Positions 1 through 5,502 of a stretch of 5,923 nt of DNA are shown piece by piece. The notes beneath the pieces are model-generated. The model saw only the letters and a program-made list of their open reading frames with translations. It searched no databases and had not been told where the DNA came from. How positions within the stretch are numbered: position 1 is the first letter of the stretch; each line of letters opens with the position of its first letter. Both the position numbers and the translations under genes were made by a program. Source of the stretch: Candidatus Iainarchaeum sp. (lineage in GTDB: Archaea > Iainarchaeota > Iainarchaeia > JAGGVJ01); NCBI GenBank assembly GCA_021158055.1, contig JAGGVJ010000027.1, forward strand, positions 1 to 5,923, in the 5' to 3' direction.

Positions 1-39
1 ACAGCAACAGTTGATAACTTCTTTCCAAAGCCACAATAA
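1..39 (+). CDS. Possible C-terminal tail of an upstream gene (partial)
   Basis: Frame 1 is open from the window edge to a TAA at 37-39 and would encode the 12-residue end TATVDNFFPKPQ. The stop lies just before the TATA box of the next gene, as expected at the end of a preceding transcription unit. The stretch is far too short to prove coding: frame 2 is also open (to the TAA at 74-76), and on the minus strand two ATG codons at 59 and 55 open frames toward the window edge, so a divergent gene is an alternative. No function can be assigned. Confidence 0.2.
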   Translation, partial: TATVDNFFPKPQ

Positions 40-76: not shown

Positions 77-2080
77 ATGCGAGTTGTATGTATGCGTAAT
101 TTTTACCACAGTTTTTTTGAAGACAAAAATACCCTATTTAATCCAAGAGCTTGTGTTCCTTCAAAGCTAATCGAGGAACTAAAAAACTTTGCGTTCAAAC
201 CCGCTCAAGGCCTGAGGAAAGTTAAAGAAACAAAAAACGCTGTTTTTCTTCACGATTTCTTGCTTAACAGAGTTTATTGGATTGAAAAAGACATCTTCGA
301 AAGAACACAGTCATTTTCCGGGAAAATCGATTCAGAAATTGACTACAACCTTCTAAAAGCAGGATTACTTGAGGAAAAAACCCACTCATATGAACCTAAA
401 TGCTCAAACAGCAAACCGGACACCCTTTCAATATTCCCGACCACCGGATGCAATCTGAACTGCATTTATTGTTATGCAAACGCAGGAATCAACACAAAAA
501 AAATAGACATGGCTTTTGTCAGAGCCGGAATCGATTGGTTTTTAACGAACTGCCAGAAAACAATCCCCATTGTATTTCACGGCGGCGGAGAACCGACCAC
601 TGCAATGGAAATAATAAAGGAATCCCAGGATTACGCACGCTCAAAAGCAGATAACGTGTTTCTTTCCGCTTCGACAAACGGCGTCTTTCCTGAAAAAACC
701 CTTGAGTATATCCTTGAAAATTTTGACAACATAACTGTATCTTGCGACGGTCCCCCGGAAATACAAAACAGGCAACGGCCACAAAGAAACGGTGACAAAA
801 GCAGCAATATTGTTGAAGAGACACTAAAAAGATTCAGTGAAAGCGATTTCAGTTTTTCTGTAAGATCCACAGTTACAGAATATTCGTGTGCAAAACAAAA
901 TGACATGGTCGAATATTTCCGGAATTTGGGTTGCAGAAATATTCACTTTGAACCTATGTTTGAAAACTCAAAAAGTTCAAGACACACTGTTTCTTATTCT
1001 GCAGCCCCGGAATATCATAAATTCGTAAATAATTTCTTAAAGGCAAGAGAATTGAGTGATGAATACGGAATGAACTTGCATTGCTCATATCTACCAGTAG
1101 GAAGAGTCGTGGACAAATTCTGCAAGGCAGCCGGGGGAAATTTCTGCCTGACCCCTGATGGTTTCATTTCATCCTGCTATGAAGCTCCAAGCGGCAATGA
1201 TTCCGAAACAAACGACTTTATATATGGCTACTTTGACAAAAACAAACAATCAATTGAACTGAATGACGAAAAACTTCTCAAACTCAAAAACAGGACAATT
1301 GAAAAGTTAACTGATTGCCGCTCATGCAACTTCAGGTATGGGTGTGCGGGATTTTGCCTTTCAAAAACTCTTTTTAGAACACGAAACCTCAACAAGCCAG
1401 ACCCAAAACTTTGTGAGACAATAAAAAACTTGGGGGATGAATACCTCAATTTGTTCTTTGAAAAAAACGTAAAAAAAATGACTCCATATCTTATTGAAGA
1501 TACTGAAGGGAAAAATGCGTGGTATCAACTCTCAACGCAAAAAATAAAAATCAACGAAATAACTGAATTTTCCAAAACAAAAAACAATGAGTCAAAAATA
1601 CTTTCAGTGAACTTTGAATCCCTGGTATCGAAAAACACCGAAAATGCCAAAGAAATCATAAATTTAAAACCAAATATTTTGCTTGTGTTAATACCTGACT
1701 CAACCCATATCAACAAAGACAGCTATTCAAAATTCAAAGAATCAAAAAAAGAAATAGAAAAAAACAACATTATCGTAAAGCTTACAAAACCACTGCCTTA
1801 TTGCATCACAAAAGAAAAAATGCCTTCTTTTCCATGTGCAGAATGCCTTGAACTGTTCAAAGCAAAACCAGATGGAACAATTGTTTTTTGTAATGCCTTA
1901 AAAATAAACCCAAAAAAAATTAGTGATTTTGAAACCCGCAGTGATTTAACTGATTTTGTGCAGAAAACAACTGAAGACCAAAACAAAAAAAACGGCTGCT
2001 TGGACTGCATATATCTAATCCGGGGAAAGTGCGGCGGGAAGTGCCAAAAAATTCAGATAAAAAATGTTTTAAAACTATAG
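77..2080 (+). CDS. Radical SAM/SPASM maturase-like protein with a second C-terminal SPASM-like module
   Basis: Predicted cytosolic radical SAM enzyme of the SPASM group, whose members (anSME, PqqE, peptide cyclases) mostly modify peptides or proteins. Residues about 28-100 form a small domain ending in LLKAGLLEE, resembling the N-terminal (sometimes peptide-binding, PqqD/RRE-like) part of such maturases; this is tentative. The core has C125, C129 and C132 in CNLNCIYC for the SAM-binding 4Fe-4S cluster and GGGEP at 169-173. A complete seven-Cys SPASM set follows: C349-x12-G362-x4-C367, C414-x2-C417-x5-C423-x3-C427, C446. Residues about 470-667 are extra: a low-similarity stretch, then C576, C587-x12-G600-x4-C605 and C641-x2-C644-x7-C652-x3-C656, a second SPASM-like set lacking only the last Cys. 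At 667 residues it is clearly longer than the usual 370-480 of SPASM enzymes. The start at 77 fits a nearly leaderless mRNA; Met6 at 92 is the alternative. There is no signal peptide or membrane segment. The substrate is unknown. Confidence 0.9.
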   Translation: MRVVCMRNFYHSFFEDKNTLFNPRACVPSKLIEELKNFAFKPAQGLRKVKETKNAVFLHDFLLNRVYWIEKDIFERTQSFSGKIDSEIDYNLLKAGLLEEKTHSYEPKCSNSKPDTLSIFPTTGCNLNCIYCYANAGINTKKIDMAFVRAGIDWFLTNCQKTIPIVFHGGGEPTTAMEIIKESQDYARSKADNVFLSASTNGVFPEKTLEYILENFDNITVSCDGPPEIQNRQRPQRNGDKSSNIVEETLKRFSESDFSFSVRSTVTEYSCAKQNDMVEYFRNLGCRNIHFEPMFENSKSSRHTVSYSAAPEYHKFVNNFLKARELSDEYGMNLHCSYLPVGRVVDKFCKAAGGNFCLTPDGFISSCYEAPSGNDSETNDFIYGYFDKNKQSIELNDEKLLKLKNRTIEKLTDCRSCNFRYGCAGFCLSKTLFRTRNLNKPDPKLCETIKNLGDEYLNLFFEKNVKKMTPYLIEDTEGKNAWYQLSTQKIKINEITEFSKTKNNESKILSVNFESLVSKNTENAKEIINLKPNILLVLIPDSTHINKDSYSKFKESKKEIEKNNIIVKLTKPLPYCITKEKMPSFPCAECLELFKAKPDGTIVFCNALKINPKKISDFETRSDLTDFVQKTTEDQNKKNGCLDCIYLIRGKCGGKCQKIQIKNVLKL

Positions 2081-2230: not shown

Positions 2231-3244
2231 ATGAATAAAAAAAAACACATTGACGGCTATCTTGAAGTCACTCACAAATGCAATCAAAACTGCGCTTTCT
2301 GTTCTTTTCCTCCAAAAAATGACGGGATGAGCTTTAAAGAGTTAAAAGAAAAAGTCATGAGATTCAAAGAAAAAAACGTCTCTGAAATTGTCTTGACTGG
2401 AGGGGAACCCACAATAAATCCTGATTTGCCTAAATTGATAAAGCTCATAAGCGATCAAGGACTGCCCTCGCGGCTCATAACCAACGGGGTGAAACTGGCT
2501 GACAAATGCTTTGTCAAAAAACTCATAGACAGCGGTTTGGGCAGGGTGGCCCTTTCTTTCCACACGCACAAAAAAGACATTTCCGAAAAGTTATCGGGAG
2601 TTCCCGGCAATTTTGAAAAATATATCCTTGCAATGGAAAACATGACAGAACTCAAGCTATGGTTTGACATAAACACCACAATAACTTCGCTGAACCTCCC
2701 GTATCTCCCAGACACTGTGAAGTTCATTGCCGCCAATTTTCCAAAAACAGCATTTATCAGCTTTAATTTCGTAGACGCGGTGGGAAATTCCAAAAATAAT
2801 TTTGCCATAGTGCCAAAAATCAGCAGTGCAGAATATCACCTGACGAAAATCTTTCACGCATGCAAAAACTGCGGAATAGAATTCCACATAGAAAGGGTCC
2901 CGTTATGCTATATGCATTACTTTGAAACGCGATCAAGTGAAGCTCACAAATTCATAAACGATGAATTTATCCTAATCTCAAGAAAAGAAAAAGATTTCAA
3001 TCCAGTCAGGCACAAGCCAGGGGCAAAAATAAACGGGTACACAAAATCAGAACCCTGCAAAATCTGCCTTCTCAACGACATATGCGCAGGATTGCCGGAA
3101 GATTATGCTGAAATGTACGGCACCGGGGAGTTATACCCGCGTTTTAAATCAATCCAAAGCGTGTTAGCGCAGGAAACGAACAGAAAATTTGTAAAGGAGA
3201 ACCAACAATGGCAAAAATCACAAACAGAGAACACATTGTTGTAA
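2231..3244 (+). CDS. Radical SAM protein with a C-terminal four-Cys auxiliary cluster site
   Basis: Compact radical SAM enzyme, predicted cytosolic. C17, C21 and C24 (CNQNCAFC) bind the SAM 4Fe-4S cluster and GGEP lies at 57-60. TNG at 84-86 and SFHTH at 109-113 match barrel-strand positions seen again in the next gene. The C-terminal part has C226 in VPLC, then C276-x2-C279-x5-C285 followed by AGLPEDY, a layout common in uncharacterised radical SAM proteins and expected to ligate an auxiliary Fe-S cluster (twitch/SPASM-like). At 337 residues it is the simplest of the three paralogues here, with no added domain, so it may resemble the ancestral module. An A9 tract at 2237-2245 encodes Lys3-Lys5. 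The last 37 bases overlap the next gene in another frame, so the two are probably translationally coupled. The reaction and substrate cannot be told from the sequence; a peptide or protein modification is the likeliest inference. Confidence 0.9.
   Translation: MNKKKHIDGYLEVTHKCNQNCAFCSFPPKNDGMSFKELKEKVMRFKEKNVSEIVLTGGEPTINPDLPKLIKLISDQGLPSRLITNGVKLADKCFVKKLIDSGLGRVALSFHTHKKDISEKLSGVPGNFEKYILAMENMTELKLWFDINTTITSLNLPYLPDTVKFIAANFPKTAFISFNFVDAVGNSKNNFAIVPKISSAEYHLTKIFHACKNCGIEFHIERVPLCYMHYFETRSSEAHKFINDEFILISRKEKDFNPVRHKPGAKINGYTKSEPCKICLLNDICAGLPEDYAEMYGTGELYPRFKSIQSVLAQETNRKFVKENQQWQKSQTENTLL
3193..3199 (+). promoter_or_regulatory. Strong Shine-Dalgarno site inside the preceding gene
   Basis: AAAGGAG at 3193-3199 stands eight bases before the ATG at 3208 and lies inside the coding sequence of the preceding radical SAM gene. 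It fixes the start of the 764-residue protein and shows that the 37-base overlap is used for coupled translation rather than being an annotation error. Confidence 0.8.
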
Positions 3245-5502
3245 CAGGCAAATGCAATAACAAGTGCATTTTCTGCCTCAACGGAGCGATTAATCCGTGT
3301 CACAAAAGTACTGAAGAAATATTCAACCGGATTGATAAAGCTGCCAGGGAAAATATTGACAGAGTCATATTCAGCGGCGGAGAACCAACAGTACACCCTA
3401 ATATAGCTAATTTTGTGGAACACGCGAAATACAATGGTTTTAAAACTATCCAGCTTGTATCAAACGGAAGGAAATTCAGCGACCCGTCCTTTACAAAAAA
3501 ACTCGTGGAAGCAGGAATGACTGAAATTACTTTTTCTGTTCACGGGCACAACGCCCAACTCCACGACATGCTTACCGATATTCCCGGGAGCTTTGATGAG
3601 CTTGTAACAGGCATAAGAAACGCGCAGCGATTTCCAAATCTCATCATAAGTGTAGATATTGCTCTTATTTCCAAGAACTATCCTTTCCTGCCTGAAATAG
3701 CCAAATTCATAGTTGATGAACTTGAAATAAGACGCGACCTCAACATAGTCGGAACTGCTCCTTCAGGCAGAGCTTATGAAAACAGAAAAAACATATTTCC
3801 GGATATGAAAAAAGCAGCTCCAAAAATAAAAGAAGCTGTAGAATGGCTTGAAAAAAACAACATAATCGTATGGATACTAAGAACAGATCCAAAATATTTA
3901 ACAGGAATAGAAAAACATAGGGAAGACCTTCCGAAAATGATTGAGGAGATAGAAACCCGTTGCAATATCTTTCAATCAAAAAGCACTACCCCCCCGTGTT
4001 TTGGCGAGATGTGTGAATTTTGCGGAATAAAACTGATGTGTGAAAAAATAGTGTGCGCCAACAAGAATCTGGAAGCAAAAACCGGTCTTGAAAGAGCATG
4101 CATCTATCTCAGCAAAGAAAAAGAACATTGCGAGGAAACAAACAAAACAAAGGAATACAACTGGAAAAAAACAAACGAAGCAAGAAAAGAAATAGAGCTG
4201 GCCGCTCGCATTGGATTCAAAGAACTCTTTTTTAAGGGTTATGAACCCATAGAACACCCTGAATTCAACGAACTGGTGCTTTTTGCCAATAAACAAAATT
4301 TCACATGCATTGGAACAGAATGCGACGGGTTTTTATTCTCTCATGAAAAATTCGCAAAAGAAGGACGGCAAAACGGCCTGAAAAAAGTTATTTTCACCTT
4401 AAATGAAATTCCAACGCCACAAATTCTGAACGCCATAAATAACACCAAAAAATCAGGAATAGAATTTGAGTTTGAAATAACCGTCACAAACAATAATCTT
4501 GAGAATCTTCAAAAAATATTTGACGTTATTGAAAAATTTGATGCAAAAATTATCTTTCGGCTGGTAAATCCACTTCCATTTATCCAAAGATATACGCACC
4601 TTAAGTTTGGCATGAACATCATCTCAAAAGGAAACCTTGTCCCAATATTGACACAACTCCCAGCTCAATTAAAACCAATCCTGAATAAAAACAACACAAA
4701 AGTGTTTGTAAAAGACGTGCCTTTGTGCATATTCAAAGAATTTCCGGAAAGTGTAATAGAAGACTGCTTTAGCCTGAACATGGAAACAATAGACTTTGAT
4801 TCTGAATCAACCAAAGGTTCTGAACCCCTGCGCGTGGATCCTGTAAAATGCGGTGTGAATTTTCTGTCCAAGATCAAGATAAAAAGCCAATTATGTGACG
4901 GCTGTGCATATTCCTTCAAATGCAGTGGCTTGTTTGAACCATATGTAAAATGGAGGGATTTTAAAGACATTGAACCGGTAAAAACCAACGATTTGGAAAA
5001 CCGGATTCAAACACCGCCTAAAAAAAGCGAGATAACGGTGTTCTGGAAAAAATTCAAAGAAAAAAAACTTGCATTAATTGAAATTTTTGAGTGCCTCAAA
5101 ATTCCTGAAAAGAAAGAATTAAACGTTTCCATTAACTACAAAAAGATTATCAATCTTCTTGCAGAACTCGCAAAAACAAGTTCCCTAAAAGATTGTTGTC
5201 CAGATTTGGAAAAACAAATCAAAGACCTCGCACACGCAAAAGAAAAAAAGATAAATATCATTGAGATAATCTCAAATTTTTATGGGGTTTTGCTTGATGA
5301 CAAATATTCTAACTTAACATTTGAAGAAAAAACCGCCCTAAAGGAGCTTATTAAAGAATATAAAAGCGAAAAATATGGCGGGACAAACAACAAACTAAGC
5401 AAACTTAAAGCAGAATTACATAAAGACAAAAACTTCTTTTTCCCAAAAGAAAACAAAGGGTTTGCCTTGCAGGAGTGTTTGAATGGTTACTCAACAAGAT
5501 GA
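3208..5502 (+). CDS. Tandem radical SAM protein: one active domain, one degenerate domain, unknown C-terminal extension
   Basis: Residues about 1-285 form an intact radical SAM domain: C16, C20 and C23 (CNNKCIFC), GGEP at 57-60, SNG at 85-87, SVHGH at 110-114. It is collinear with the preceding protein and clearly paralogous. The auxiliary region is altered: the VPLC cysteine appears replaced (Tyr230 in DPKY), but C252, C264, C269-x2-C272-x5-C278 and C283 remain. Residues about 293-585 are a second copy. FKGYEPIEHP (342-351) aligns with FSGGEPTVHP (55-64), yet no CxxxCxxC is left, only C308 nearby, so it should not cleave SAM. This copy keeps C507 in VPLC and C563-x2-C566-x5-C572, the full auxiliary set. 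Residues about 590-764 are Lys/Glu-rich, look helical and match nothing I recognise; they contain Cys663-Cys664. The protein is about twice the usual family length and predicted cytosolic. Its start is fixed by a strong ribosome site, and its end overlaps the ATPase gene by 20 bases. The substrate is unknown. Confidence 0.9.
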   Translation: MAKITNREHIVVTGKCNNKCIFCLNGAINPCHKSTEEIFNRIDKAARENIDRVIFSGGEPTVHPNIANFVEHAKYNGFKTIQLVSNGRKFSDPSFTKKLVEAGMTEITFSVHGHNAQLHDMLTDIPGSFDELVTGIRNAQRFPNLIISVDIALISKNYPFLPEIAKFIVDELEIRRDLNIVGTAPSGRAYENRKNIFPDMKKAAPKIKEAVEWLEKNNIIVWILRTDPKYLTGIEKHREDLPKMIEEIETRCNIFQSKSTTPPCFGEMCEFCGIKLMCEKIVCANKNLEAKTGLERACIYLSKEKEHCEETNKTKEYNWKKTNEARKEIELAARIGFKELFFKGYEPIEHPEFNELVLFANKQNFTCIGTECDGFLFSHEKFAKEGRQNGLKKVIFTLNEIPTPQILNAINNTKKSGIEFEFEITVTNNNLENLQKIFDVIEKFDAKIIFRLVNPLPFIQRYTHLKFGMNIISKGNLVPILTQLPAQLKPILNKNNTKVFVKDVPLCIFKEFPESVIEDCFSLNMETIDFDSESTKGSEPLRVDPVKCGVNFLSKIKIKSQLCDGCAYSFKCSGLFEPYVKWRDFKDIEPVKTNDLENRIQTPPKKSEITVFWKKFKEKKLALIEIFECLKIPEKKELNVSINYKKIINLLAELAKTSSLKDCCPDLEKQIKDLAHAKEKKINIIEIISNFYGVLLDDKYSNLTFEEKTALKELIKEYKSEKYGGTNNKLSKLKAELHKDKNFFFPKENKGFALQECLNGYSTR
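5471..5475 (+). promoter_or_regulatory. Shine-Dalgarno site of the ATPase gene
   Basis: AGGAG at 5471-5475 is seven bases before the ATG at 5483, an ideal distance, and lies inside the end of the tandem radical SAM gene. It supports the chosen start and coupled expression of the ATPase with the radical SAM genes. Confidence 0.75.

Follow-up and report, generated by a model that had tools for sequence, protein, structure and literature searches.

A conserved SPASM-like C-terminal module, probably derived from a radical SAM enzyme's back half, on proteins of DPANN archaea mostly linked to His-Xaa-Ser clusters

Gene content of the window

The DNA analysed here (the window) is the whole of contig C5 (5,923 bases) from an archaeal genome of 1.15 Mb, and its features are listed in Table 1. 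The front part of P0001 is an ordinary RiPP-type radical SAM/SPASM enzyme: it matched Pfam Radical_SAM with 52.4 bits, and the predicted model of the protein aligned with CteB (5why) over residues 43–462 (Z 30.8, rmsd 3.6 Å, 366 aligned). The complete first SPASM domain (C349 to C446) reported in an earlier note on this sequence was confirmed with TIGR04085, which scored 41.8 bits on the stretch 349–446 (cut-off 27). The best NCBIfam match of P0001 was PapB (109.6 bits, below the cut-off of 340). PapB (NF047865), a ranthipeptide maturase with a single SPASM domain and an auxiliary cluster acting in intermolecular electron transfer (PMC10470005), is thus the closest curated family of the front part. 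P0001 is not HxsB, as it scored 73.6 bits against TIGR03978 (cut-off 370).

Table 1. Features of the 5,923-base window
Feature	Position	Strand	Basis
3' end of a His-Xaa-Ser precursor gene starting on contig C28; TGA stop at 12–14	1..14	+	11-base overlap
P0001, 667-aa radical SAM/SPASM peptide-maturase-like enzyme with putative C-terminal half-enzyme module	77..2080	+	ORF, Pfam, NCBIfam, model alignment
CxxxCxxC radical SAM motif (C125, C129, C132)	449..472	+	Sequence
First SPASM domain (C349, 357, 367, 414, 417, 423, 427, 446)	1121..1414	+	TIGR04085
Tail half-barrel, beta-alpha-beta-alpha-beta, residues ~508–575	1598..1801	+	AlphaFold tail model; homology to L083_1066 residues ~147–215
Tail eight-cysteine part (C576, C587, C590, C605, C641, C644, C652, C656)	1802..2044	+	Invariant in 10 of 17 copies
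HxsC-like radical SAM protein	2231..3244	+	TIGR03977 98 bits (cut-off 267.9); PxC and CxxCx5C (C226, 276, 279, 285)
ORF3, HxsC4-like radical SAM protein fused to a second, degenerate copy	3208..5502	+	NF038332 147.5 bits, two stretches; second half 33 bits

At the end of contig C28, which belongs to this genome too, lie a true HxsB gene (426.5 bits, cut-off 370) and a gene for an HxsA-like precursor that terminates in SHG repeats, and the window begins with the last 11 bases of that contig (ACAGCAACAGT). Reading across the join gives a frame with the ending ...SHGSHSSHSNS*. Together, the overlap and the joined frame would place the precursor gene directly upstream of P0001, with 62 bases between its stop codon and the P0001 start; by this contig overlap, P0001 is encoded beside an HxsA-type precursor and HxsB. 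With scores of 38.2 bits for HxsA4 (cut-off 55) and 31.8 bits for HxsA3 (cut-off 65), the precursor reached neither threshold. Precursors of the HxsA-like type consist of long repeats, and the one of this genome contains many cysteines. The arrangement resembles that of the His-Xaa-Ser system (HxsA, HxsB TIGR03978, HxsC TIGR03977, HxsD TIGR03976) in that the P0001 gene lies next to HxsA-like and true HxsB genes and is followed by HxsC-like genes; the archaeal loci represent HxsA4/HxsC4-like variants, and each cluster encodes many radical SAM enzymes. In the genomes of Diapherotrites f10 the order is the same, an HxsA-like precursor gene being followed by a P0001-type enzyme.

The second radical SAM copy of ORF3 lacks CxxxCxxC. 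A paralogue of ORF3 (G000:C29, 20549–23044, i.e. L039 15549–18044; 831 aa) apparently consists of two copies, both without the motif. Clusters of this type therewith contain pseudo-radical-SAM partners. Directly after ORF3, an ORF cut by the contig end (5483–5923) has an AAA/archaeal ATPase-like start (Pfam AAA_22, 33 bits).

The tail of P0001 is SPASM-like

The earlier note had described a second SPASM-like set of cysteines behind the first. All the residues it named, C587-x12-G600-x4-C605 and C641-x2-C644-x7-C652-x3-C656, were found at fitting coordinates, the codon of C656 being 2042–2044. It was also right about the PDG shared by the tail (598–600) and the first SPASM domain (360–362), the lack of CxxxCxxC in residues 470–667, and the approximately 115 residues preceding the cysteines (117 counted between 470 and 587). 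However, its set was incomplete, since C576 (PLPYC) and C590 had been missed. The module as delimited here occupies residues ~508–656 of the 667 aa.

The tail shares with the SPASM domains (TIGR04085/PF13186) of CteB, anSME and SuiB the order of the AuxI and AuxII cysteines, the C-x9-G-x4-C and CxxC..CxxxC elements and the C-terminal position. The general SPASM pattern C-x9-15-G-x4-C occurs as C590-x9-G600-x4-C605 and also as C587-x12-G600-x4-C605; its G is not kept in every module copy. In contrast to these SPASM domains, i) the spacing C-x2-C-x5-C-x3-C is replaced by C-x2-C-x7-C-x3-C, seen in all ten complete copies, ii) an upstream PLPxC takes the place of the downstream last cysteine, with no conserved cysteine beyond C656 and with C576 co-varying with 641, 644 and 652, and iii) the domain is the second in its protein, follows a half barrel that has no SAM site, and falls below the HMM cut-off. 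The two separate SPASM hits proposed as a check were obtained in part: TIGR04085 matched P0001 in two stretches, but the isolated tail scored 17.7 bits (E 0.0035), below the cut-off of 27, and none of seven other tails scanned with this model gave a match. The tail is therefore SPASM-like but not a SPASM member by strict definition. Nor is it a complete second radical SAM enzyme, as CxxxCxxC and a full barrel are absent and only beta-alpha-beta-alpha-beta precedes the cysteines.

In the AlphaFold model of the tail, most of the matching blocks of the half barrel had pLDDT values of 70–80, while the C-terminus (26–46) left the cysteine region unresolved. With this weak model, neither Foldseek (lowest E 0.017) nor VIA-align (highest Z 4.4) gave a significant match; they returned just generic alpha/beta folds, with no radical SAM structure listed, a result that given the quality of the model does not count against such a fold. 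A PDB profile search with the module gave only chance-level matches, no match of a zinc-binding domain profile to the tail was found, and no Pfam or NCBIfam model among those scanned covers the module as one unit.

Two cysteine quartets

All eight cysteines are kept in 10 of the 17 module copies (see below), where they make up 8 of the 13 invariant columns at a mean pairwise identity of 35% (minimum 21%). The other seven copies are partial, having lost cysteines in blocks: L071 keeps exactly 576, 641, 644 and 652; L050_6579 keeps these four plus 605; and five f10 copies, with truncated tails, keep 587, 590 and 605 but have lost 656 and the remaining four. Further cysteines occur near the end of four of these five f10 copies, where the aligner sets them at different columns. 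The block losses divide the residues into quartets A (587, 590, 605, 656) and B (576, 641, 644, 652), and the module is accordingly predicted to hold two metal clusters. Comparison of the copies thus gives good support to a module binding two Fe-S clusters and, with one radical SAM cluster and two clusters in the first SPASM domain, to a predicted total of five in P0001, in place of the four suggested earlier. In the module tree the complete P0001 groups with L050_6579 (support 92/88), so the losses from set A in L050_6579 and L071 were probably independent. The earlier note had named conservation of C587–C656 in orthologues as a test. These cysteines are kept in the ten complete copies, but the Diapherotrites f10 orthologues lack five of the eight; the tail site is hence not universal even among orthologues. 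Since the f10 enzymes without site B are encoded beside intact HxsA genes, two clusters are not essential everywhere.

The ligands of anSME are C255/C261/C276/C330 for AuxI and C317/C320/C326/C348 for AuxII (PMC5715301). The order of quartet A is that of AuxI, and quartet B follows C317, C320 and C326 of AuxII, whereas the fourth AuxII ligand of anSME is downstream (C348) and that of site B upstream (C576). Assignment of site A as AuxI-like, and of site B as AuxII-like with its fourth ligand upstream rather than downstream, is well supported. Joint loss of the AuxI ligands with retention of AuxII is known from archaeal AhbD (PMC10452713). In SuiB and AhbD one AuxI ligand comes from the linker (PMC6231123, PMC10452713), and C576 might in principle likewise be a ligand of site A, but the block losses assign it to B. 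A B-type set (PxC plus CxxC-x-C) is also present in the HxsC-like enzymes of these genomes, conserved in 50–53 of 54.

Origin of the tail

The tail HMM matched L083_1066 (= L090_5719), a complete radical SAM enzyme of 313 aa, over residues 147–310, a stretch running from mid-barrel to the C-terminus. The score was 27.0 bits with E 1.1e-7, and the genome search gave E 8e-7. This enzyme carries the radical SAM motif, a PLPxC site and CxxC-x6-C-x3-C, and its own SPASM region passes TIGR04085 (28.2 bits, cut-off 27). The best other non-carrier among 116 radical SAM ORFs tested scored 10.4 bits, 300 shuffles with the cysteines fixed gave a maximum of 3.1, and replacement of the cysteines lowered the score to 2.1. 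Given this match and its controls, the simplest reading of the tail is that a radical SAM enzyme's back half became fused to the protein; that the tail comprises the second half-barrel and SPASM-type domain of an enzyme that lost its SAM-binding half is well supported by profile homology. The earlier note took the tail for a truncated second enzyme retained on account of its Fe-S site. The match to the back half of a complete enzyme essentially bears this out, but the tail is no recognisable copy of the front enzyme. In hhalign comparisons of 15 tails with their own front halves, with HxsB and with the YydG-like front, the scores did not exceed those of column-shuffled controls, and tandem duplication of the own enzyme was set aside as the simplest origin because the tail–front comparison gave no signal. 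Against HxsC-like proteins, hhalign gave 29.4 (null maximum 22.5), over 28 columns only.

Distribution and gene context of the module

By profile searches of whole genomes, copies of this C-terminal module were located in 17 proteins of archaea belonging to three phylum-level groups: ten P0001-like radical SAM/SPASM proteins, which are HxsB-like, six YydG-like radical SAM proteins and one DUF362-ferredoxin, three carriers that otherwise differ in domain make-up. The tail is a conserved C-terminal unit that is separable and that three kinds of proteins share in DPANN archaea. The P0001-like carriers are found in Diapherotrites, in RBG_16_49_10 and G171 (located in the phylum holding the Aenigmarchaeota matches), and in a third phylum-level group, that of G515 and G516. 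A YydG-like carrier scored 65 bits with the YydG/EpeE radical SAM epimerase family, far below the cut-off of 300; EpeE is not known to have such a tail. In the module tree one branch sets off the SPASM copies and another the YydG copies (moderate support, 79/64 and 85/90), so each set may stem from a single acquisition. No match was obtained with P0001 alone as query against the genome contigs (first scan), and none was found in viral contigs or in the phylum of G087 (23 genomes). L072_6493 (E 0.0015, weak) was disregarded as a copy, its match covering the half-barrel part only.

Most of the module-bearing genes lie in or beside His-Xaa-Ser-type RiPP gene clusters. In G515 and G516, HxsA-like genes (below cut-off) and genes resembling HxsB and HxsD are found beside the module copies. 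The YydG-like carriers of L055, L068 and L069 adjoin HxsB- and HxsD-type genes, typed by length, motif and resemblance and not in every case by HMM. The DUF362 carrier has an HxsC4-like neighbour, whose score of 158.9 bits is under the cut-off of 500, and in L052 and L071 no Hxs gene was recognised in the stretch read. In the literature searched, which included few subscription journals, we found neither an HxsB described with an additional domain nor an account of an enzyme with two SPASM domains.

Possible function of the module

How SPASM enzymes recycle electrons after each turnover and what purpose AuxII serves are open questions (PMC9012708, PMC10470005). In PapB, the second auxiliary cluster is needed to hand an electron to an outside carrier and to regain it (PMC10470005). 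We suggest that the front enzyme of P0001 would, judging from its family and neighbourhood, take hydrogen from the HxsA-like peptide, and that the tail clusters would extend the electron chain from the maturase clusters to the surface and an external carrier, such that electron exchange through the tail could reset the enzyme between turnovers. The carrier would plausibly be the DUF362-ferredoxin of these clusters: one such protein bears the module and unfused DUF362-ferredoxin genes are present in the clusters of G515 and G516, which suggests it as the partner and makes it a candidate electron donor. Taken as a whole, the proposed module origin, two Fe-S sites and electron-port role form the best explanation and one we consider reasonably probable. 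The specific proposal that P0001 acts on the neighbouring HxsA-like precursor with its tail as an outboard electron port is tentative, with somewhat less than an even chance of being correct. It is somewhat unlikely that the module, built from half a radical SAM enzyme, is a clip-on redox unit providing a common electron coupling for several members of a single archaeal peptide-modification pathway, namely both types of radical SAM enzyme and the ferredoxin, which would exchange electrons or assemble as one complex; each SPASM-type carrier would then hold five Fe-S clusters.

The main rival is that the module docks the substrate, binding the long Cys/His-rich HxsA precursor through an open auxiliary-cluster site or the half-barrel surface while the front enzyme works along the repeats. 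MoaA and CteB set a precedent, since both bind substrate at an open auxiliary-cluster site (PMC9012708, PMC6231123), and the f10 copies, with only the three conserved site A cysteines, are comparable to MoaA, which likewise has three ligands; long, repetitive precursors, including the Cys-rich one encoded next to P0001, also suit a dock. However, both quartets are complete in ten copies, leaving no open site, and the module occurs on a DUF362-ferredoxin, which is no obvious peptide-modifying catalyst; we regard docking as unlikely. A structural part, in which the eight cysteines would hold two zinc ions and the domain, taking no part in redox chemistry, would help the maturation complex to assemble or dimerise, fits the interleaved CxxC pairs and the sharing of the module by several components of the same clusters. 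It is quite unlikely, since the tail is homologous to the part of a complete radical SAM enzyme that forms its Fe-S SPASM region and since every carrier is itself an Fe-S protein. That the tail is a decaying relic, now functionless and left over from an unsuccessful fusion or from a second enzyme that degenerated, might be read from the block losses in 7 of the 17 copies and the truncated f10 tails, but eight cysteines invariant in ten copies at such low identity, across three phylum-level groups and three carriers, make this already disfavoured reading most improbable.

The proteins constitute a natural set with an added, removable pair of auxiliary clusters and with variants having only site A, only site B or both. 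With these module variants and the ferredoxin carrier, the role of auxiliary clusters becomes directly testable.

Other features of the clusters

The data indicate large, uncharacterised His-Xaa-Ser RiPP clusters in DPANN archaea. DUF362-ferredoxin genes recur in them (L087 15922–17046; L089 3166–4284; L070 1193–2830), once fused to the module. The YydG-like enzyme encoded at L069 3–2258 has, in addition to the module, a further C-terminal domain of ~240 residues that is probably helical. L022_9475 (L022 9475–10749), a single-SPASM relative of 424 aa that is 38% identical to P0001, has no tail; it shares its cluster with an HxsA gene, a 298-aa membrane-like protein being encoded between them. 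L055 4822–6129 encodes an HxsA-type leader (NF038309 28.1 bits, below cut-off) fused to two Hint/intein-like domains, where TIGR01445 (N-terminal splicing region) matched in two stretches, and this precursor may self-splice or self-cleave. A possible precursor at L050 8633–9226, in a stretch that is partly N, has an HxsA-like leader ('LPKIKKKVVGFVLSEEG') and, in the frame read, a PQEQPPPR-type repeat tail. L029 and L022 (G030:C9) contain approximately ten radical SAM genes on one 32-kb contig, with genes for HxsA, HxsD-like, aminotransferase-like and very Cys-rich proteins, a maturase island unusually large for a genome of ~1 Mb.
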